Assembly: GCA_026417415.1 (NCBI GenBank)
Contig: JAOADG010000008.1
Location: forward strand, 767,612 to 831,611
Direction of reading: 5' to 3'
Source: a bacterium
GTDB lineage: Bacteria; Electryoneota; JAOADG01
DNA: 64,000 nucleotides
In this document: positions 3,615 to 41,289 of the stretch, in pieces
Layout: every line of letters starts with the position of its first letter
How positions within the stretch are numbered: the stretch's first letter is position 1
The notes under the pieces: generated by a model
The model's input: only the letters and a program-made list of their open reading frames with translations
Database searches by the model: none
Told to the model about the DNA's origin: nothing
Program-made: the position numbers and the translations under genes

Positions 3615-5242
3615 TAAATACCCCACCTTCTAAAAACTTTTTTAATCGTTGTTTTCCAGTTTGCTGATGTATTCCACTCAATATCTAATAAAGCAACAGC
3701 CGAACCTGGTGATTCACTGGATAAAATTTTAAATTGTACATTCATAGGTGCTAAACGGTGCGCAATTTTCATGATTTCAGCATAACTAACTTCACCTGTT
3801 GAAAAAAATACATCTGTTACTCTTTCCGATTGTATGATTCTTTCTAATTCATCCGTATCACCGAGGGGATCATACTTAAATGATAAAGGTAATGATTGTG
3901 ATTTGTACTTTACAAATCCAGCCAATTCATAATCAGAATTCAGTTCTTTCAATTTTTCTGCCACAATAGTTGCTAAACTATCCGTACCGATGATTAGCAC
4001 TACTGATCGTGTAAAATGTCTCAGCCATTTCGAGTGCAGAACCCACTGATAAATCAATCTCCAAAGTGGTAAAAGAATCGTCCATGTGGTAGTAGCCACC
4101 AGTACAATTAACCGACTAAACATATAATCTTGTAAAAAGAAAAATGTATAAGTAGCAGATATAAACGCTGCTAAAATACCGGCTTTTAAAGCCGAAATAA
4201 TTTGAACTTTTCCTACTGATGTGTAAGTGCCAATTGCAAAAAGTGATAGTAAAACTAAAATCGTGTTTGCAACGGTAACACGTAGATCAATAGAAAATAT
4301 AGAAAGTGAACCAAACTTAACAGTGTAACCTATGAAAAATGAAAACAGAACTATTGAAACATCTATTGCTAATGGAAACAAAAAAGATAGATTCCGAATT
4401 TTCTTAAAAAGTTTTGCAATGACGACACCAAAACGTATTAATAAAATACCGTATCCTTTCCACCAACTTTTGTAATGTTTTTCAGCAAACAAAAACATAG
4501 CGTCATAGAATGCATCTTCTTTTTTAATATTGCTACGGCGAGTACTTTCACCACGATAATGCACTGATGTCACTTCTGGTAAATAAAAAATATCATATCC
4601 AATATCAGAAACACATTTACATAAATCTAAATCTTCACCGTACATGAAAAAACGTTCATCAAAACCACCTACTTTTTCTAAAACCGACTTGGGGAGCAAC
4701 ATAAATGCACCTGAAACAGCACCTACTTTTGAAACAGTATTTTCATCTAAATAGGTAAGGTTGTATTTTCCAAAAAGTTTAGATTTAGGGAATAATAATG
4801 ATAATCCACTTATTCGTGTAAACGCTATCCAAGGTGTTGGGATACTTCTTCTACAAGCGACATCAATAGATCCATCACGTTTGATTAACTTTGGGGTTAC
4901 GATTCCACAATTTGGATTTTCTTTTAAAAAATTGATTAAAGTGGGTAAAGCATTTTCACTCACCACTGTATCAGGATTTAAAATTAGTACATATTCACCT
5001 TGGACAAATTGAAAAGCGATATTATTTGCTTTTGCAAATCCAATATTTTCATTTAGCTCAATTAAACGAATGTTTGGAAATCTCTCTTTCAAGTATTCAA
5101 TGGAACCATCATTAGAATAATTATCAACAACGATGATTTCGAGAGGGATTAATCTGGATGTACTTTCAAGTGAGAAGATGCACTGTTCGACAAAATGTTT
5201 CACTCGATAGTTAACAATTACTACCGAAATTATTGGCTTCAT
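3614..5242 (-). CDS. GT2 glycosyltransferase fused to a membrane/Rossmann module of sugar-phosphotransferase type
   Basis: 542 residues. Residues 1-265 are a GT-A family 2 glycosyltransferase resembling rhamnosyltransferases: 'ISVVIVNYRV', 'IIVVDNYSNDGS', a metal-binding 'NPD' at 89-91 and 'GEDLDLC' near 202-208. Residues ~285-400 form about four membrane helices. Residues ~413-540 form a Rossmann-like domain beginning 'VVLIIGTDSLA'. The C-terminal two parts resemble the N-terminus of polyprenyl-phosphate sugar phosphotransferases (WbaP/PssY type), but the catalytic bacterial sugar transferase domain is absent and the protein ends 'FRRWGI'. It lies 5 bases downstream of the DPM1-like gene. 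The GT2 call is firm; the acceptor and the role of the C-terminal module are unknown. Confidence 0.8.
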   Translation of the reverse strand: MKPIISVVIVNYRVKHFVEQCIFSLESTSRLIPLEIIVVDNYSNDGSIEYLKERFPNIRLIELNENIGFAKANNIAFQFVQGEYVLILNPDTVVSENALPTLINFLKENPNCGIVTPKLIKRDGSIDVACRRSIPTPWIAFTRISGLSLLFPKSKLFGKYNLTYLDENTVSKVGAVSGAFMLLPKSVLEKVGGFDERFFMYGEDLDLCKCVSDIGYDIFYLPEVTSVHYRGESTRRSNIKKEDAFYDAMFLFAEKHYKSWWKGYGILLIRFGVVIAKLFKKIRNLSFLFPLAIDVSIVLFSFFIGYTVKFGSLSIFSIDLRVTVANTILVLLSLFAIGTYTSVGKVQIISALKAGILAAFISATYTFFFLQDYMFSRLIVLVATTTWTILLPLWRLIYQWVLHSKWLRHFTRSVVLIIGTDSLATIVAEKLKELNSDYELAGFVKYKSQSLPLSFKYDPLGDTDELERIIQSERVTDVFFSTGEVSYAEIMKIAHRLAPMNVQFKILSSESPGSAVALLDIEWNTSANWKTTIKKVFRRWGI

Positions 5243-5247
5243 AGGTA

Positions 5248-6033
5248 TTAAATTTTACCGATGATTGACAACCATCTCAATCGCCAAACCATTAATATGG
5301 CTTCTTTGACAATTGCCTTTGACATTTTTGATTTTCCTACAGTACGGTCAATAAAAATAATCGGAATTTCCTCTATTTTGAATTTTTTTCTCCAGGCCTT
5401 AAAAGTTAACTCGATTTGAAAACTGTAACCATTGGACTTTACTTCATCTAAGTTTAAAGCTTCTAAAACTTCTTTTCGAAAACATTTAAAACCACCGGTT
5501 GGGTCCTTTATTGGCATTCCAGTAATGGTTCTTGTATAAAGTGATGCCCCATAGGATAACAACAATCTAGTTAAAGGCCAGTTTACTACATTCACTCCCT
5601 GTTTATATCTTGAACCAAGCACCAAATCTGCAGTTTCAGCTGCTTTTAAAAAGTTAGGAATATCGCAAGGATTATGCGATAAATCTGCATCCATCTCTAA
5701 AATTCGTTCATACCCATGCTTTAATGCCCATTTAAATCCTGTGACATAAGCAGTTCCCAAACCAAGTTTCCCAGAGCGCTGGATTAAATAGATCCAATCT
5801 TCATTTCCTCTATTTTTCCACTCGATTATTTTTTCCGCTGTTCCGTCAGGTGAATTATCATCTACGAATAAAACATGCAAACCAAAATCCATTGATTGAA
5901 TAATGGTAAGTAAACGATCAATGTTTTCTACTTCATTGTAAGTAGGAATGACAACTACCGTTTTACGGTACGGAATTTCTTTTCTTGAAGGAGGATTTAA
6001 TAAGGTACCTAACAAATTCAATTTATTGTTCAA
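5248..6033 (-). CDS. Polyprenol-phosphate mannose synthase-like GT2 (DPM1 family)
   Basis: 261 residues. The single GT-A domain shows 'VVVIPTYNEVENIDRLL', 'VDDNSPDGTA', the metal-binding 'EMDADLSHNP' and 'DPTGGFKCFRKEVLEAL', all hallmarks of the DPM1/polyprenol monophosphomannose synthase branch. Known members transfer mannose (or another sugar) from a nucleotide sugar to a polyprenyl phosphate at the inner face of the membrane, making a donor for GT-C enzymes. There are no C-terminal membrane helices, so it is of the soluble DPM1 type. The start is TTG at 6033 behind AGGAGA. A DUF2723 GT-C protein three genes upstream could use its product. Confidence 0.88.
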   Translation of the reverse strand: MNNKLNLLGTLLNPPSRKEIPYRKTVVVIPTYNEVENIDRLLTIIQSMDFGLHVLFVDDNSPDGTAEKIIEWKNRGNEDWIYLIQRSGKLGLGTAYVTGFKWALKHGYERILEMDADLSHNPCDIPNFLKAAETADLVLGSRYKQGVNVVNWPLTRLLLSYGASLYTRTITGMPIKDPTGGFKCFRKEVLEALNLDEVKSNGYSFQIELTFKAWRKKFKIEEIPIIFIDRTVGKSKMSKAIVKEAILMVWRLRWLSIIGKI

Positions 6034-6925
6034 TGTTAATCTTCTCCTGAAGAAAATAGTTTTTCAGGTTGACTACTAAGCTTTTAGGTTGAAATTGTAA
6101 AACTTGTCTTGTATAATCAGATAACAATCCTCCTTTCAAAGGTCTTCTTGCAGTTTGTTTTAAGGAAACAGTGTCAATTTTTTCAATTAAATTTACATTT
6201 AGATTTGCAATTTCCGATATAAGACAAGCAAATTCATACCGACTCAAATAATCAATTCCAGAAATATGAAATATGCCAATTTCTTTCTTCTTCAACAAGC
6301 AAAAAATCCCATATGTTAAATCATCGGTTGATGTTGGTGTAGAAAATTGATCCATTACTATCTTCACTCTTTCATTACAGCGAAGCTTGTTTACCAACCA
6401 TCCCACGAAATCCAATACAACCCCTTGTTCATATCCAAATAAAACACAAGTACGTACAATTGCATTCTTATGATTACCTGCTAAAACGTATTTTTCTGCT
6501 TCTAACTTTGTCACCCCATAAAAATTAACTGGCTTAGGTTCATCAAATTCAGAATATGGTCCTTTGGTACCGTCAAAAACATAATCAGTGGACAGTTGAA
6601 TAAAATAAGCTCCTTTCCGAAAAGCATACTCATTAATAATTCTTGGAGCTGTGGTATTGATTTGATAAGCCATGTCTCTTTCGTTTTCACATAAATCCAC
6701 ATTGGTCATCGCAGCAGTATTGATAATAACATCCGGAGAATAGTACTCTAAACAACGAAATATCTCTTCATCCTCTGTAAGTTCTAATTGAAAATAGTCG
6801 GGAACAGAACGAACATTTGGAAAACGGTCAGTACCAATCACTTCGTATCCATTGTTTCGTAAAAATGGAACAAGTTTTCTCCCCAAACGCCCCATACATC
6901 CTGTCACTAAAACTCTATCACTCAT
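6023..6925 (-). CDS. rfbD: RmlD-like dTDP-4-dehydrorhamnose reductase / NAD(P)-dependent sugar reductase
   Basis: 300 residues of the extended short-chain dehydrogenase fold. The nucleotide-binding motif is 'VTGCMGRLGRKL', followed by 'INTAAMTNVDLCE', 'STDYVFDGTKGPYSE' and the catalytic 'YGVTKLEAEK' (YxxxK). These motifs and the length match RmlD, the last enzyme of dTDP-L-rhamnose synthesis. rfbA, rfbB and rfbC are not beside it, so a related sugar-nucleotide reductase is possible. It overlaps the upstream methyltransferase gene by 4 bases (ATGA) and runs 11 bases into the DPM1-like gene, so the three are probably translated together. Confidence 0.8.
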   Translation of the reverse strand: MSDRVLVTGCMGRLGRKLVPFLRNNGYEVIGTDRFPNVRSVPDYFQLELTEDEEIFRCLEYYSPDVIINTAAMTNVDLCENERDMAYQINTTAPRIINEYAFRKGAYFIQLSTDYVFDGTKGPYSEFDEPKPVNFYGVTKLEAEKYVLAGNHKNAIVRTCVLFGYEQGVVLDFVGWLVNKLRCNERVKIVMDQFSTPTSTDDLTYGIFCLLKKKEIGIFHISGIDYLSRYEFACLISEIANLNVNLIEKIDTVSLKQTARRPLKGGLLSDYTRQVLQFQPKSLVVNLKNYFLQEKINIEQ

Positions 6926-7854
6926 ATTTTCTTACCAACAGCCACAATAACTGATGCACCAGCTAATCCACCCATTAAAGATGGCAAAGTAGCAGTAAAC
7001 ATTCTAAGGGGAAAGTACCAATCCACTTTTTTTTGAATATCTTTTCTAAGCTTTTCGCTAAGAAATACATTGTAAAATAGATCTAAAGGCAACGTTGATA
7101 CTTTTTGAACGCGAAAATTACAATCCCCCAATAAATTTGTTAATGTTTCTGGGGTAAACATCGTCAAATGTCTTGGTGCATCATAAGCTACCCAGTATTC
7201 TTTATAAATTCTTGCGTCCCAGCCTGTCGCATTCGGCACTGCTACGATAATTATTCCATTCTTTGCTAAAAGTGTGTAACAATGTTTAAGAACATCTTTG
7301 GGACGATAAGTGTGTTCTAAACTATGCCATAATGTAATTGCGTGATAGTTCTCATTGGGTACAAAACGTTGAAAATCATTGATATCGGTTAACACAAAGT
7401 GGATATTTTTTTCTTTGAAATTAGATACAAGATTTTCAGAAAAATCCACACCTGTTCCCTTCCATCCCCTTTTGCTAGCTAATTCTAAAAAATCACCAGT
7501 ACCACAACCGATATCTAAAAGTAAATTCGTGTTTTTATCCCTTGGATAGCCAAGTTTTTTAAATCGATAGATTAGAGAAAATTTTCTAATTTTAAGATAA
7601 AGTTTTTGAAATAGTGTATTCGCTGTTTGCTTTGAAACAAATGGATCATAACCAGTCGTAGGATAAAAATAAGCCAACAGGTCGGCTGTTGGCTTATTCT
7701 GAATAAAAAAGATACCACAATCTTTACATCCATGAAGTAGATATTGAAAACCTTCATGTAATTGAAAACGATCAGGTAATGTCAAATAACGGTAAGAGCG
7801 TTTACTACTACAAACTGGACAGGATCCATTCTCTACCTGTCCGATATTACACAT
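6922..7854 (-). CDS. SAM-dependent class I methyltransferase with N-terminal zinc ribbon
   Basis: 310 residues. An N-terminal four-cysteine ribbon (CPVC at 14-17 and CKDC about 25 residues later) precedes a class I methyltransferase with motif I 'LLDIGCGTGDFLE' and the post-motif 'WHSLEHTYRPKDVL'. A hydrophobic glycine-rich segment near the C-terminus could touch the membrane. Such ribbon-methyltransferase proteins commonly sit in polysaccharide clusters and modify sugars. The substrate is unknown. The ATG is at 7854, five bases after the upstream outer-membrane protein gene. Confidence 0.8.
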   Translation of the reverse strand: MCNIGQVENGSCPVCSSKRSYRYLTLPDRFQLHEGFQYLLHGCKDCGIFFIQNKPTADLLAYFYPTTGYDPFVSKQTANTLFQKLYLKIRKFSLIYRFKKLGYPRDKNTNLLLDIGCGTGDFLELASKRGWKGTGVDFSENLVSNFKEKNIHFVLTDINDFQRFVPNENYHAITLWHSLEHTYRPKDVLKHCYTLLAKNGIIIVAVPNATGWDARIYKEYWVAYDAPRHLTMFTPETLTNLLGDCNFRVQKVSTLPLDLFYNVFLSEKLRKDIQKKVDWYFPLRMFTATLPSLMGGLAGASVIVAVGKKI

Positions 7855-7859
7855 ATGTT

Positions 7860-8588
7860 TTAATCATTCGTCCATTTTTCGGGAATAAAGTAAAATCGCC
7901 ATCCTATTTGCGCAAAGATACCTGAGTAGTCAATTGGCAAGCTTGTACTGCCTACATTTTGGGATGGAACGGTTATTTTATCACCATTTTCATTTTCATA
8001 ACGAATTCTGTCCACATAATGATTCCGATATCCCGCAGTAAATGCTATTGCATGATTGTCGTTAAAAGATATTTCCAACAATCCCTTTATCATGCCACCT
8101 ACTGTTCTTCCTGTCGCTGAAACGAAGTTACGATTGCTTGCTGCACCAGTTCTAGAAGCGGTAGCAAATGAAAAATTGGGTCCAGCGCCTATGCCTATGC
8201 GGAAAACATCACCCACATCAAAAAGATAAGTAGGTAAAATAAAAAACTCGCTTCCAGAAATGTTCATTTGTGCTAATTCTTTTGTATCTGTGTTTTCAGA
8301 TTTCCATGTAGCAGCTGCGAATGCATTATATCCTATCTCCCATTGAAAATTAGGATAAGAACGATACAAAAGGGAAACACCAAACGATGGTATCCCTGAT
8401 GGTTTGGTCGATGAGGTCTTACTTTTCCCCCATAAAGTATCCACTACGTTATTTACATCTTCCATTGTAGGGATTCCGAATCCACCACGTAATTCCAGAC
8501 CGTATTTTTGTTTGATGTCCGCAGCAACCGAAAAAGTTGACCACGCGAGTATCCCAATCAATATCAGCGAACTAAAACGCATTTGCAT
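7860..8588 (-). CDS. Outer-membrane beta-barrel protein, unknown function
   Basis: 242 residues with a clear signal peptide ('LILIGILAWSTFSVAA'). The mature part has alternating aromatic/hydrophobic strands and ends in 'IGWRFYF', a typical beta-barrel closing strand. It resembles small porin-like OmpA/OMP_b-brl proteins in length and strand pattern, but no specific family motif is seen. AAGGAG lies 10 bases before the first of two ATGs (8588), which decides the start. It sits inside the glycosyltransferase cluster, so it could be a cargo, an exporter component or an unrelated passenger. Confidence 0.65.
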   Translation of the reverse strand: MQMRFSSLILIGILAWSTFSVAADIKQKYGLELRGGFGIPTMEDVNNVVDTLWGKSKTSSTKPSGIPSFGVSLLYRSYPNFQWEIGYNAFAAATWKSENTDTKELAQMNISGSEFFILPTYLFDVGDVFRIGIGAGPNFSFATASRTGAASNRNFVSATGRTVGGMIKGLLEISFNDNHAIAFTAGYRNHYVDRIRYENENGDKITVPSQNVGSTSLPIDYSGIFAQIGWRFYFIPEKWTND

Positions 8589-34431: not shown

Positions 34432-37377
34432 TTATAAAAGAGGAACTAATTTGTTCAATTGCCAATTAACACGAATTTTAGCAACACTTCCACGTCGGTC
34501 TTCGTACAACACATAACCATTTTCTAAACCGAATCGAAACAACTCTTTTGTTAAATAGACATCATGTTTACAGTACTCTTGGATTAAATCCCATTGACCA
34601 TTCTTTACCCATTCTAAACTTTTAATTCCGTCAGCAATTTTTGTATCACCAAGTGTAGCTTTTGCTAAGGTAGAGAGTGATAATCGTTTACCTCCTGAAC
34701 TGTTTTTAATTTCTACCATTAAATCAAAAGAATTTAAGGTATTTACTATTCGAAAATCATATTTTCGAAGTACCTCATAATCAAATCGAATTGAATTATA
34801 TCCTACTACTAATTTTGCTGATTTTAAATGTGCCAATAAATCGTTGACGTCTTTCTCGAAATATGTTGAATAGGATTGTGTTCTTTCATCAAATACCACT
34901 GCAAGTGCTAAACCCATTTCTCGAATATTATGCCATCCACCGACCTCTTCAGCACTCCTCAAAGTTTCTACATCAAAGTAAACAATCGGTTTACCCTCTA
35001 ATGAAACAGTTGAAAACAATAACTGGTCCAAATTCTTATCTTTTTCCTCATCTAAAGAACCTAATATAATGTGATTTTGAATGAAATGGGAATTTACATT
35101 CTGTTCACTTACACTTGTACCCACCCAACGTTCCAATAGCCATACAGCACCCTTCTTATCTAATGGACGATTACCACTACCACATTTGGGTGATTGGACA
35201 CAACTTGGACATCCGCCTTCTTCTTTACAATTACATTCAGAAATGAGACGATGAGTTTTATTTATCCAATCCGAAACTTTTTGAAAACCCAATTCAGTAA
35301 GACCTGCACCACCATTGTACCCATCGTATAAAAAGATTGTCGGTGCTTTTGTTTGGATATGATGATCCATAGTTATGCCACCCAAATCATTTCTATCACA
35401 TAAAGCAAGTAAAGGCAACATGGCTAACATCGCATGTTCACAGGCATGTCTTGAACCTGCAAAATGAAACCCTTTTTTTGAACATTCAGCAATTAGTAAT
35501 TCATCCATAACTATCCAACATCCAACTGTATCGAAAATAACTTCCGGTAATTCTAAGGGAACAACTTCTTCTAAAACTTGTGTTATTGTATGTCTTCTTT
35601 CATATGCTACGACTTGTTCATGAACTCTTAGCTTACCTAAAAAAAATTCATCGTTTCCTATTTTTTTCTTTTCATAGATATCAAGAATTTCCGTTTCTTT
35701 TTCAGTACGCGGCATAGTATAATAGCGAGGTGCTGGAATTTGTTCAGTTACAACAACTTTTTTTCTATAAAGATCTAATTCATTGACGAGATAAATTCTT
35801 CCGTTGTGCAAATAAACAGCTCCTTGATGACATTCACGAAAAACACTTGACCCATCAATGTCACCAATCTTTGAATTAGATAATTGTTCAAAAATTTGAA
35901 ACGATTTACCAATGCTTCGTAAATCCACGTTTCGATGGAAGGAACGTTTATGTGAAAGTAACAAATTCCCTGTTTTACTTTTTACCAATTCACCTGTTTG
36001 CACTAAATCTTGTATAGTTTCTTGATAACTTTTTTCTTTGAATGAGATTTCTTCTGTCTGTATCGGCAACTCAAGTGCTGCACAGATTAGATGAGATTGA
36101 AGTATATGAGTGTTTTTGTGATTAATGGTCGCTGATTCAGAAGAACGTGAAAATACTTCATCCGGATATCTCATCAAATATTGATCAAGTGCGTTTGGTG
36201 ATGCTACCAAAACCGCTAATGCAGTTTTATCACTCCGACCGATTCTTCCCCACCTCTGCCACATAGTAGCAATTCTTCCAGGAAAACCATTTAGAATGCA
36301 GACATCTAAGCCACCAATATCAATCCCTAATTCCAAAGCTGAAGTAGCAAAAACACCTATTAATTCTCCTTTGGATAACCGTTTTTCTATATCTCTTCGT
36401 TCTTCGGGTAAAAAACCAGCACGATAGGAAGAAACTTTATTTTTTAAATGCGGGAATCGTTCAGTAATAGCAATGTACAATCGTTCAGTTTCTTGTCTGG
36501 AACGACTAAATACAATCGTTTTAATTCCATTTTGAATAGAGATCATTGCCAATTTTAAACATTCTTGAAAAGCGCTATTTACTATTGGTTGAAATAAAAG
36601 ATAATGCTTTTCAGGTTGTGGCGATCCTGAATTGGTTATTTGAATCGTAGGTTTCCCGAACAATTTTTCACCCAGTTCAGCAGGATTTGCAATTGTAGCA
36701 CTTGTGGAAATGTAAGTATTATTGGAACCATAATAATCAGTTATTCGATTTAATCTCATAAACACACATCGCATATGAGTTCCAAAGATTCCGCGATAAA
36801 TATGCAATTCATCTACAACTACATACCTCAACTGGCTAAAAAAACGATACCATAACGAATGATAAGGTAAAATACCTAAGTGTAACATTTCGGGCGTTGT
36901 AATTAAAACTTTTGGTGGAGTCGCACGAATCTTTTTTCTAATAGTATCAGGCGTATCACCATCATAAATTGCTGCACTTACATCGTACATACTTGAAAGG
37001 TTGAACGTTAATTCTATCCACTTGTGGAGTTGATCATTCTCTAATGCTTTTAAGGGGTAGATAAACAAAGCATTAGCATTTTCATTAATAATGGCTTCAA
37101 GTACAGGGATAAAGTAAGCCATTGATTTACCAGATGCGGTAGGTGTTGCTAGTACAACATTTTTCCCTGCTCTAACATTTTTAATCACTTCGGTTTGATG
37201 AGAATAAAGTTTATGAATTCCAATCTGATTTAAAACTGTTTGTATACGATTATCAAGTAGAAACTCTTCATCATATTCTGCAGGCACCGCTGAAATCACT
37301 TTGTGGTGCAAGAGGGTAGAACTTAGATACTGATCTTTTTCTATTTCTTGGATTAAACGATGTACACGATCACACAT
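34432..37377 (-). CDS. mrfA: MrfA(YprA)-like DEAD/DEAH helicase fused to an MrfB(YprB)-like DEDDy 3'-5' exonuclease
   Basis: 981 residues. Residues 1-~760 are a superfamily 2 helicase: Walker A 'TPTASGKS' (78-85), DEAH-type box 'DELH' (189-192), 'STSATI' (224-229), 'GFPGRIATMWQRWGRIGRS' (364-382), then a DUF1998-type C-terminus with the five-Cys zinc cluster 'CNCKEEGGCPSCVQSPKC' (715-732). This matches MrfA/YprA. Residues ~790-950 add a DEDDy exonuclease: 'YFDVET' (D802, E804), 'NSIRFD' (D866) and 'YCKHD' (Y935, D939), as in MrfB/YprB. In Bacillus subtilis MrfA and MrfB are separate and act together in repair of mitomycin C damage. The single-chain form is notable. Domain calls are firm, the repair role inferred. 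Confidence 0.9.
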   Translation of the reverse strand: MCDRVHRLIQEIEKDQYLSSTLLHHKVISAVPAEYDEEFLLDNRIQTVLNQIGIHKLYSHQTEVIKNVRAGKNVVLATPTASGKSMAYFIPVLEAIINENANALFIYPLKALENDQLHKWIELTFNLSSMYDVSAAIYDGDTPDTIRKKIRATPPKVLITTPEMLHLGILPYHSLWYRFFSQLRYVVVDELHIYRGIFGTHMRCVFMRLNRITDYYGSNNTYISTSATIANPAELGEKLFGKPTIQITNSGSPQPEKHYLLFQPIVNSAFQECLKLAMISIQNGIKTIVFSRSRQETERLYIAITERFPHLKNKVSSYRAGFLPEERRDIEKRLSKGELIGVFATSALELGIDIGGLDVCILNGFPGRIATMWQRWGRIGRSDKTALAVLVASPNALDQYLMRYPDEVFSRSSESATINHKNTHILQSHLICAALELPIQTEEISFKEKSYQETIQDLVQTGELVKSKTGNLLLSHKRSFHRNVDLRSIGKSFQIFEQLSNSKIGDIDGSSVFRECHQGAVYLHNGRIYLVNELDLYRKKVVVTEQIPAPRYYTMPRTEKETEILDIYEKKKIGNDEFFLGKLRVHEQVVAYERRHTITQVLEEVVPLELPEVIFDTVGCWIVMDELLIAECSKKGFHFAGSRHACEHAMLAMLPLLALCDRNDLGGITMDHHIQTKAPTIFLYDGYNGGAGLTELGFQKVSDWINKTHRLISECNCKEEGGCPSCVQSPKCGSGNRPLDKKGAVWLLERWVGTSVSEQNVNSHFIQNHIILGSLDEEKDKNLDQLLFSTVSLEGKPIVYFDVETLRSAEEVGGWHNIREMGLALAVVFDERTQSYSTYFEKDVNDLLAHLKSAKLVVGYNSIRFDYEVLRKYDFRIVNTLNSFDLMVEIKNSSGGKRLSLSTLAKATLGDTKIADGIKSLEWVKNGQWDLIQEYCKHDVYLTKELFRFGLENGYVLYEDRRGSVAKIRVNWQLNKLVPLL

Positions 37378-37687
37378 ATTTGCTAAGCAATTCGGCTTCA
37401 GAATTAGGAAAAGGAATCATCCTTAAGTGACAATGAGCATGAGCAGGAATTTTGCGTTGTTTCCAATCAATATAGCCTTGACTTCCAAAAATTGAAATTA
37501 GGATTTTCCCTATTTGTTTTTTCTCTTCATAATGAAATGAGGAACGATGATGTTTCAATACAACCATTGGAACATTACAAGTATTGCAGTTTACAATAAT
37601 AAAATCATCATTTTCGAAATGGAATTGGGTGTAAATATTTCTATGATTTACTAATTGACATAATTCGCAAGTATTTGGATTATTCAT
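37370..37687 (-). CDS. Small HIT-like protein with zinc-knuckle cysteines
   Basis: 105 residues. The N-terminus has 'CELC' and a second 'CNTC', and near the C-terminus is 'IPAHAHCHLRMIP', an H-x-H-x-H-like cluster as in histidine-triad nucleotide hydrolases/transferases. It is shorter than classic HIT proteins and the triad is atypical. It overlaps the upstream reductase gene and the downstream helicase gene by 8 bases each. Nucleotide-phosphate hydrolysis is possible but unproven. Confidence 0.55.
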   Translation of the reverse strand: MNNPNTCELCQLVNHRNIYTQFHFENDDFIIVNCNTCNVPMVVLKHHRSSFHYEEKKQIGKILISIFGSQGYIDWKQRKIPAHAHCHLRMIPFPNSEAELLSKYV

Positions 37688-38633
37688 TTTTTTCTAACCA
37701 CTGTAATGTTTCTTGTAATGCGGATTGAAGAGAATAGGTTGGTTTCCAATGGGTTACGTTCCGAAAAAAGGTATCATCACAACGCCAATCAGGAATTACT
37801 AATTCACGTAATTTATCTTCATTTAATAAAGTAGGTTTTTGGGTAAATTTCTCTTTCAAAGAAGAAACATTCTTCACTATAGGAATAACTATTTCTGGCA
37901 ACTTTACTGAAACAACTTTCCTCTGTAAAATTTGAACGACTGTATGTGCAAATTCATTCCATGTAGTATCGCCTGATCGAACATACCAAAACTTATGTTT
38001 TAAATCATCATGGTAAATGCATTTTTCTAAACTAGTAATTACATCGTGAACATAAATCCAACTGAACTTTCTTTCTTGATTTCCAATTTGTATTGTTATT
38101 CCTTTTTTAGCCAATTTTAAAAAATGTACAATATCTTTTTCTTCTGGTCCAAAAACTGCAGGTGGTCTTTGAATCGTCCACCAAAAATCACTCGAATAAA
38201 GTTTTTTCTCAGATGCTAATTTAGACATTCCATAATAACTGATTGGTTCACTTGCATCTTGTTCATTTCTTGGTCTTCCTTGTATAGAAGGACCTCCGGC
38301 AGCTTGAGAAGAAACTAACACAAATTTGGGTGGCGATGTTAATTGATTGCAGATAGTTACAATTTTTGCAGTTAACTGTTCATTCACTTCAACGATTTTT
38401 TGAATTGGGAAATACCTTAATGAGGAAGCAATATGGAAAATGACATCTTTTGAAAAAAGGATTTTTTTTAATTTTTCTTCATCCTCATAACTTACACTAT
38501 ACCAAAAGACATCTCGTAAGTTCTTATTTGGTCTAGATCGAGATAATACCGTGATTTCGTGATTTTGTCGTTGGAAGTATTGAATGCAATGGGTCGCAAT
38601 GAAACCACTACCACCCGTAATAACTAATTTCAT
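37680..38633 (-). CDS. cerR: NAD(P)-dependent epimerase/dehydratase-family reductase, probable ceramide reductase
   Basis: 317 residues, extended short-chain dehydrogenase. The cofactor motif is 'VITGGSGFIATHC' (residues 4-16), the catalytic Ser lies in 'VLVSSQAAGG' and the YxxxK pair in 'YYGMSK' (Y134, K138). By sequence alone this is a general epimerase-family enzyme. The ceramide reductase call rests on its position directly after a GNAT protein and a serine palmitoyltransferase, the same three types that make dihydroceramide in Caulobacter (Spt, bCerS, CerR). It overlaps the GNAT gene by 4 bases. Confidence 0.65.
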   Translation of the reverse strand: MKLVITGGSGFIATHCIQYFQRQNHEITVLSRSRPNKNLRDVFWYSVSYEDEEKLKKILFSKDVIFHIASSLRYFPIQKIVEVNEQLTAKIVTICNQLTSPPKFVLVSSQAAGGPSIQGRPRNEQDASEPISYYGMSKLASEKKLYSSDFWWTIQRPPAVFGPEEKDIVHFLKLAKKGITIQIGNQERKFSWIYVHDVITSLEKCIYHDDLKHKFWYVRSGDTTWNEFAHTVVQILQRKVVSVKLPEIVIPIVKNVSSLKEKFTQKPTLLNEDKLRELVIPDWRCDDTFFRNVTHWKPTYSLQSALQETLQWLEKNE

Positions 38634-39766
38634 ATTAATTGTTTCGAATAAAGTCGATATGTTTTATACAGTTTTGCCCCTATATTTGCTAAGACCTGAT
38701 TCATTCGTGTGTTATCTTCTAATATCCAAGACAATTCACCTAATTTGTATCCCCTTTTTTGTGCAGATTGATAAACAGCATTATACAAAAGTACATCAAT
38801 ACCGCGATGACGATACTCAGGTATCACACCCATTGCTAATAAACGTAACTCATCGATACCAGTAACCTTTAGCTTCCAAAGGATTTTTAACCACCCCAAT
38901 GGTAATAATCTACCTCTCTTCAATTTTTTAAACGCTTGGTTTATGTTTGGTATTGCTAGTGAAAAGGCAACAGGTTGATCATTCACAAAAGCAAAATGAC
39001 AGATTTCCGGATCTACAATTGGTTTTAATGATTCAGCTAAATAATCAATTTCTTCATCTGACATTGGGAAAAAACCCCAATTGTCAGCCCATGCTTTATT
39101 GTAAATATGTTTGACAATTTCAACTTCTTCTCTGAATTTATTCATTTGTAATGCACGAATTTCAACTTGATATCTTTTCCTAATTTTTTCTGCGCCTTCT
39201 CGGTATCGATCGGTTTGATCCTTATTAGTCATACACCATGCATACAAATCTTTTATCTTTCGGTAACCACATTTTTCAATGTATTCAGGGTAATATGGTG
39301 GGTTCCAAGGCATCATCACTTGAGGAGGTAAATCAAATGCATTGATCAAAATTCCGCACTCATCATTGGTGGAGGGATTCATTGGACCTATAGAACACTC
39401 TAATCCTCTACTCAACAACCATTGTTCAGCAGCTTGAAATAATTTGTACGCAACCGTATCATCCGCAATTACTTCAAAAAAACCGAAATGCCCAACATTT
39501 TCGCGATGAAATTCATTATGTGCATAATTGTGAATAGCTGCTATTCTTCCAACAGTTTGTCCATTACGTTTAGCTAAAAAAAGTTGGTGTTCTGCACGTT
39601 TCCAAAAAGGATTTTTCCTTTTATCCAATAATTTTAAAATTTCTGAAATAGGAGGTGTAACATAATTTGGATGGTTTTGATGAATTGAAAATGCAACATC
39701 TATAAACGTCCGATACTCATTTGGGCGATGTATCGGCACTATTATAACTTCATCATCAACTCTCAT
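38630..39766 (-). CDS. bcerS: GNAT-superfamily N-acyltransferase, probable bacterial ceramide synthase
   Basis: 378 residues, longer than a simple acetyltransferase and probably two GNAT-like halves. The N-terminal half has 'GRIAAIHNYAHNEFH' and 'GPMNPSTNDECG'. The C-terminal half has the acyl-CoA loop 'VIPEYRHRGID' (314-324) and 'LSWILEDNTRMNQVLANIG'. This ~380-residue family is usually annotated only as GNAT. The neighbours and the analogy with the GNAT-type bacterial ceramide synthase suggest that it N-acylates the long-chain base. It overlaps both flanking genes by 4 bases (ATGA), indicating tight co-translation. Confidence 0.65.
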   Translation of the reverse strand: MRVDDEVIIVPIHRPNEYRTFIDVAFSIHQNHPNYVTPPISEILKLLDKRKNPFWKRAEHQLFLAKRNGQTVGRIAAIHNYAHNEFHRENVGHFGFFEVIADDTVAYKLFQAAEQWLLSRGLECSIGPMNPSTNDECGILINAFDLPPQVMMPWNPPYYPEYIEKCGYRKIKDLYAWCMTNKDQTDRYREGAEKIRKRYQVEIRALQMNKFREEVEIVKHIYNKAWADNWGFFPMSDEEIDYLAESLKPIVDPEICHFAFVNDQPVAFSLAIPNINQAFKKLKRGRLLPLGWLKILWKLKVTGIDELRLLAMGVIPEYRHRGIDVLLYNAVYQSAQKRGYKLGELSWILEDNTRMNQVLANIGAKLYKTYRLYSKQLI

Positions 39767-40944
39767 AATACTTCTAACATATTACCGACTTTGTAAAGTT
39801 TTTCAACTGCCAGATCAATATGTTCAAATGTGTGTGTTGCCATTAAAGATAATCGAATTAGAGCTCCACCTTTTTCGACTGCTGGGGAAATGACAGGGTT
39901 AACAAAGACACCTTCATCTTGTAATAATTTACAGTAAGTAAATGCTTTAAGATCATCACCGACATGAATAGGAATTATGGGAGTTTCACTATGTAATGTA
40001 TTAAAACCACATTCTTTGAGTGCTTTTAACATTCTATGCGTATTGTCCCAAAGTTTTTGTCTTCGTTCTGGTTCTCGTTGTAAAATTTCCAAAGCTTTTA
40101 ACACTGCACCAACGTTAGCAGGAGAAGGCGAGGCAGTAAAAATCAAAGAACGGCAATGATGCTTTAAATAATGGATCACATCACTTGATCCACCAATAAA
40201 CCCGCCCACCGATGCTAACGATTTTGAAAAAGTTCCACCGATCAAATTCACTTGATTTTGAACTTGGAAATGAGCTGCTGTGCCATCACCATTAGGGCCG
40301 AGTACACCGATTGAATGTGCGTCATCAACCATCACATCACATTGGTACTTTTCTGCTAAAAAAACAATGTCCTTTAACTTTGCGATGTCTCCTTCCATTG
40401 AAAAGACACCATCAACAACTATTAGTTTAACTTTATCTAGAGGTATTGTTTTAAGTACCTCCTCTAATGCTTGCATATCATTGTGTTTATATTTTCTTTT
40501 ATTGGCATAACTTAATCTTGAACCATCAACAATACTGGCATGGACTTGGTCATCCATAACAATGTAATCGCCACGACCTACTAATGTATCCAATACACCT
40601 AAATTTACGTGATGGCCAGTAGTAAATATCAACACTGCTTCTGTTTTAATAAATTCTGCAAGCTTCTCCTCTAATTCAATATGAATTTTTAGGGTGCCAT
40701 TTAAAAATCTAGAACCAGCGCAACCAGCACCGTATTGATCAATTGCTCTTTTTGCTGCTTCCTTTACTTCTGGATGATTGGTTAATCCTAGATAGTTATT
40801 TGAACCCATCATTAAAACTTTTTTTCCGTGCATCATCACTACAGCATCTTGATCAGATTCAATGGCTCTGAAATAAGGATAAATTCCAGCAGCCATTACT
40901 TCCTTTGCACGCGTATATTCTTTGGCACGATGTTCTATTGACAA
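39763..40944 (-). CDS. spt: Serine palmitoyltransferase-like alpha-oxoamine synthase
   Basis: 393 residues of the PLP fold type I alpha-oxoamine synthase family. Motifs: 'GSNNYLGLTNHPEV', 'AGSRFLNGT', 'VDDAHSIGVLG' (DDAH 207-210) and the PLP lysine K241 in 'GGTFSKSLASVGGFIGG'. The 'TFSKS...GGF' pattern resembles serine palmitoyltransferase more than BioF or Kbl ('GKA' type). SPT condenses serine with an acyl-CoA or acyl-ACP to 3-ketosphinganine, the first step of sphingolipid synthesis. The start is TTG at 40944 behind a G-rich sequence. Alternatives are 8-amino-7-oxononanoate synthase or 2-amino-3-ketobutyrate ligase. Confidence 0.75.
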   Translation of the reverse strand: MSIEHRAKEYTRAKEVMAAGIYPYFRAIESDQDAVVMMHGKKVLMMGSNNYLGLTNHPEVKEAAKRAIDQYGAGCAGSRFLNGTLKIHIELEEKLAEFIKTEAVLIFTTGHHVNLGVLDTLVGRGDYIVMDDQVHASIVDGSRLSYANKRKYKHNDMQALEEVLKTIPLDKVKLIVVDGVFSMEGDIAKLKDIVFLAEKYQCDVMVDDAHSIGVLGPNGDGTAAHFQVQNQVNLIGGTFSKSLASVGGFIGGSSDVIHYLKHHCRSLIFTASPSPANVGAVLKALEILQREPERRQKLWDNTHRMLKALKECGFNTLHSETPIIPIHVGDDLKAFTYCKLLQDEGVFVNPVISPAVEKGGALIRLSLMATHTFEHIDLAVEKLYKVGNMLEVL

Positions 40945-40950
40945 AACGAA

Positions 40951-41289
40951 TTACCCCCTTAATCCAGTAAAAAAATCTGAAACGATTGGGATTTTAAACG
41001 AACGTCCAGAAAATGCTCTCGCCATTCCTAATAGTGCAAAACCTACACAAATGACTAACAATGCATCCCAAATGATATTCCACCGAAATAGAATTGCAAG
41101 AACTTCAATTACAAATAGGATTAGTCCCTGTTTAGCGTGATGTTGAATGTAGCGATTGCCTGTGCTATGAATAAAAACAAAAAAACATAATCCCGGAATG
41201 TATGAAAGTAATGCAAGACCCTTTCCACTTTCTATTTCTTCTTCACTCCAAATTTTTTCGTAACTCTTTTCTTTTGCGTTATATGACAT
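40951..41289 (-). CDS. Small membrane protein, DUF4870-like
   Basis: 112 residues with about three hydrophobic helices. 'GLALLSYIPGLCFFVF' and 'RYIQHHAKQGLILFVIEV' recall the DUF4870/Tic20-like small membrane family ('HA.QGL' motif). Function unknown. It starts inside the last codons of proS (11-base overlap) and ends 6 bases before the SPT-like gene, so it may belong to either unit. Confidence 0.6.
   Translation of the reverse strand: MSYNAKEKSYEKIWSEEEIESGKGLALLSYIPGLCFFVFIHSTGNRYIQHHAKQGLILFVIEVLAILFRWNIIWDALLVICVGFALLGMARAFSGRSFKIPIVSDFFTGLRG

Follow-up and report, generated by a model that had tools for sequence, protein, structure and literature searches.

Three adjacent genes on the minus strand of the window, the whole 64,000-nucleotide stretch of DNA that was analyzed, very probably encode the synthesis of a ceramide backbone. 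They run in the order spt, GNAT, and SDR (37680-40944), and an ATGA sequence forms a 4-base overlap at both junctions (Table 1); open reading frames and junctions alike were found as the original prediction had described them. That this lineage makes sphingolipids is a prediction from its genome, to which the three proteins contribute with unequal firmness.

Table 1. Predicted ceramide genes of the window and their neighbors on the minus strand
Feature	Position	Strand	Length	Basis
spt (serine palmitoyltransferase, Sphingobacterium/Bacteroidota type)	39763..40944	-	393 aa, TTG start	Model, structure, tree, catalytic residues
bcerS-like gene (YghO/CC_1154 family tandem-GNAT N-acyltransferase, putative)	38630..39766	-	378 aa	YghO identity, AlphaFold model
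cerR-like gene (extended SDR, presumably reducing 3-oxo-ceramide or 3-oxo-sphinganine)	37680..38633	-	317 aa	SDR ranking, tree, motifs
Possible accessory gene, small membrane protein	40951..41289	-	112 aa	Hydrophobic stretches, position upstream of spt
HIT-like gene	37370-37687	-	105 aa	HAHCHLR; without a Pfam match above threshold
MrfA/YprA-type DEAD helicase gene	34432-37377	-	981 aa	MrfA zinc-binding domain and C-terminal RNase_H_2-type domain

Membership of the synthase in the Spt family is well supported. Its top curated model was NF047600 (Bacteroidota serine palmitoyltransferase), matched at 593 bits, which is below the formal curated cut-off of 640, with the runner-up at 408 bits. When the protein was searched against a structure database, the closest solved structure was Sphingobacterium Spt (PDB ID code 3a2b; 448 bits, 53% identity over 385 residues), well above Thermus AOS, Kbl, and the cysteate enzyme. 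Residues H135, D207, H210, and K241 align with the Sphingobacterium active-site residues, K241 being the PLP lysine in GTFSKS, as originally noted, and we found no marked difference between the two enzymes. We also built a tree that took in E. coli BioF and Kbl, the genome’s own two Kbl genes, and Spts of many phyla. In this tree, the window Spt grouped among the Spts and away from Kbl and BioF, and the Sphingobacterium and Taibaiella Spts formed the sister group to the Spts of the window’s phylum. The SPT-like character claimed for the synthase is thus borne out by the model match, by the identity to 3a2b, and by the tree.

The GNAT protein is likewise well supported as a member of the bCerS/CC_1154/YghO family on the basis of full-length homology: it shares 39% identity with E. 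coli YghO over 96% of its length. YghO is the E. coli BL21 counterpart of CC_1154, one of five Caulobacter genes needed to form dihydroceramide (PMC9386255); other papers name the same gene bcerS or cerS (PMC11087976, PMC11324152). The tie to CC_1154 runs through YghO. A PDB sequence search with the GNAT protein found nothing useful, and we therefore turned to its predicted structure. The AlphaFold model (mean pLDDT 92.7) shows a pair of GNAT domains and matches structures of tandem-GNAT proteins, and the assignment to the ceramide synthase family made at the outset holds. Relatives of this family also occur remote from spt, in Bacteroides, in Tunicatimonas, and on a Chloroflexota plasmid; membership in the GNAT family alone, therefore, does not fix function, and much of the case for a putative ceramide synthase rests on the linkage to spt.

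The SDR, the candidate reductase, is the most divergent protein of the trio and the weakest assignment, and its placement in a tree is less sure than that of Spt. It topped the genome’s SDRs against every CerR tried and was the best reciprocal match to CerR. A search of the genome’s SDRs with E. coli CerR gave 66 bits for the window SDR and 41 for the next; with a profile of spt-linked reductases, the values were 263 and 142 bits. In the tree, the window SDR and its same-family relative fell beside the E. coli and Sphingomonas CerRs (support 95/91), on long branches and with an identity to these two CerRs of 22-26%. The protein keeps a TGxxGF nucleotide-binding motif plus S108, Y134, and K138. 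These findings agree with the CerR-type reductase originally proposed, although less firmly than for its two partners. The Rossmann motif begins at residue 2-6, and we saw no hydrophobic segment and no obvious signal peptide in the protein; Caulobacter CerR is reportedly periplasmic. The SDR also evolves much faster than its partners: identities to the same-family genome (L005) are 36-37% for the SDR, 56% for the GNAT protein, and 71-72% for Spt.

In the pathway that we propose, Spt would condense a fatty acyl thioester and an amino acid into 3-oxo-sphinganine; serine is the most likely amino acid and acyl-CoA the probable thioester. The tandem-GNAT protein is predicted to transfer a second fatty acyl group to the amino group of the long-chain base, and the SDR would use NAD(P)H to reduce the 3-keto group. 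Reduction could come either before or after N-acylation; the sequence does not decide between the two orders, which are also disputed for Caulobacter (PMC11087976). No gene for a specialized acyl carrier protein or ligase lies beside spt in the locus examined. Bacteroidota Spts use acyl-CoA (PMC11324152), and acyl-CoA may well be the Spt substrate here.

The same enzymes might instead start from an amino acid other than serine and yield a ceramide-like product: with alanine, a 1-deoxyceramide; with cysteate, a sulfonolipid. The choice of amino acid does vary among alpha-oxoamine synthases, and co-abundance ties 1-deoxy- and sulfono-ceramides to bacteria with Spt-like genes (PMC11334938). We nevertheless regard this outcome as unlikely: the cysteate enzyme (28eh) scored 268 bits with the window Spt, far below the 448 bits of Sphingobacterium Spt, and this difference disfavors a sulfonolipid synthase, while alanine is not separable by sequence. 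A still smaller chance attaches to the SDR being an unrelated incomer, with the true pathway reductase elsewhere in the genome. The low identity of the SDR to its same-family counterpart, compared with the high identity of Spt, would fit such an origin, as would the families of the phylum that keep CerR apart from spt; in each genome checked from families without an adjacent cerR, there was one strong CerR match elsewhere. However, the window SDR outranked all other SDRs of its genome for every CerR tried, and its position is exactly that of CerR in family f6 of the phylum and in Gemmatimonadota.

Hardly credible is an ordinary Kbl or BioF that happens to lie beside an unrelated acetyltransferase and a sugar epimerase. 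Generic BioF/Kbl, GNAT, and epimerase models do match the trio, as the original prediction expected of automatic annotation, but a Kbl/BioF identity is refuted by the tree together with the cross-phylum linkage. The genome, moreover, carries two separate, clear Kbl genes, and a search of it for bioB, which would mark a biotin operon, gave nothing above the cut-off. A synthase grouping with BioF or Kbl, combined with a biotin operon elsewhere without its own bioF, had been named beforehand as the finding that would speak against Spt; the tree and the bioB search both point the other way. Synthesis of a ceramide backbone by Spt, the GNAT protein, and the SDR is, then, the reading that we carry forward.

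The trio is embedded in a long run of minus-strand genes in which overlaps are common. The HIT-like gene, downstream of the SDR gene, overlaps it by 8 bases and is in turn overlapped by 8 bases by the helicase gene; on the other side, the gene for the 112-aa protein ends 6 bases upstream of spt. Because these flanking genes also overlap or abut, the operon boundary is not derivable from the overlaps. Of the “minimal coupled operon” in the original prediction, the 4-base coupling is present, but “minimal” is therefore not established. The same-family genome also has the HIT-like gene beside cerR, and two other families have it near cerR. The 981-aa protein may be a helicase–nuclease fusion of the MrfA-MrfB type, with an RNase H-like C terminus.

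In 12 of the 19 spt-bearing loci of the phylum, the gene immediately upstream of spt encodes a membrane protein of the 112-aa type. Further upstream is proS or purL in most loci of the phylum, and the adjacency to spt holds with either. A homologue of the 112-aa protein gave a weak match to DUF4870 (E = 0.05), which makes it DUF4870-like at best, and this type of gene was not seen beside spt in the listed named genomes of other phyla. Eukaryotic Spt has small subunits and ORMDL regulators, of which the 112-aa protein could be an analogue in role. That it is a dedicated Spt anchor or regulator in the phylum seems very doubtful: inherited gene order explains the adjacency equally well, because purL, proS, the helicase gene, and the HIT-like gene are partly kept too.

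The neighborhood of spt and the GNAT gene is more than chance, its linkage being kept both across the phylum and in named genomes. Among 39 genomes of the phylum, 33 encode both proteins, three have the GNAT protein only, three have neither, and none has Spt only. The named-genome scan, which may exclude the window’s own record and those near it, returned at least 80 loci, spanning Ignavibacteria, Zixibacteria, Gemmatimonadota, Myxococcota, Cloacimonadota, Planctomycetota, and others. Among the matches listed from these genomes (80 loci), spt was within reach in 57 and adjacent to the GNAT gene in 53, and all three genes were present in 43. The 16S gene of the window genome is 93% identical to that of the same-family genome; against another genome of the phylum the figure is 83%, and against an Ignavibacteria genome it is 82%.

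Myxococcus, Rubrobacter, and Gemmatimonadota carry the same gene set. Bacterium HR33 and a Gemmatimonadetes genome (L059, L072) share with the window the spt-bcerS-cerR order and both 4-base overlaps, which rules out uniqueness of the coupled operon; these operons differ from that of the window by sequence divergence only (identities of 50-52% for Spt, 42-43% for GNAT, and 29% for SDR). The three predicted functions also match those of spt (CC_1162), cerR (CC_1164), and bcerS/cerS (CC_1154) in Caulobacter crescentus, whose GNAT protein belongs to the same family as that of the window through the link with YghO. Caulobacter additionally requires acpR and aasR, whereas no such genes lie beside the window spt, and its bcerS is apart from spt, whereas the window trio is directly joined (PMC9386255, PMC11324152). 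An E. coli plasmid record (NZ_MG591698, L037) holds homologues of all three window genes in one cluster. Unlike the window, this cluster adds genes for an acyl carrier protein and an acyl ligase, has yghO on the opposite strand, and encodes an Spt of the proteobacterial type.

The pathway, the gene set, and its tight arrangement are already known in many other bacterial phyla, and the window trio leaves understanding of the pathway unchanged. Spt-like proteins are reported from 38 phyla in the Black Sea, where the three genes frequently lie together, and our results support this published view of widespread bacterial sphingolipids (PMC11334938). What the window adds is a ceramide gene set, compact and probably complete, from an uncharacterized lineage in which spt and putative ceramide synthase genes are nearly phylum-wide. 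A complete spt-bcerS-cerR set also lies at 4674-8041 of an actinobacterial plasmid, that of Rubrobacter radiotolerans (L041), beside CRISPR genes; there, the three genes are annotated merely as aminotransferase, hypothetical protein, and oxidoreductase.
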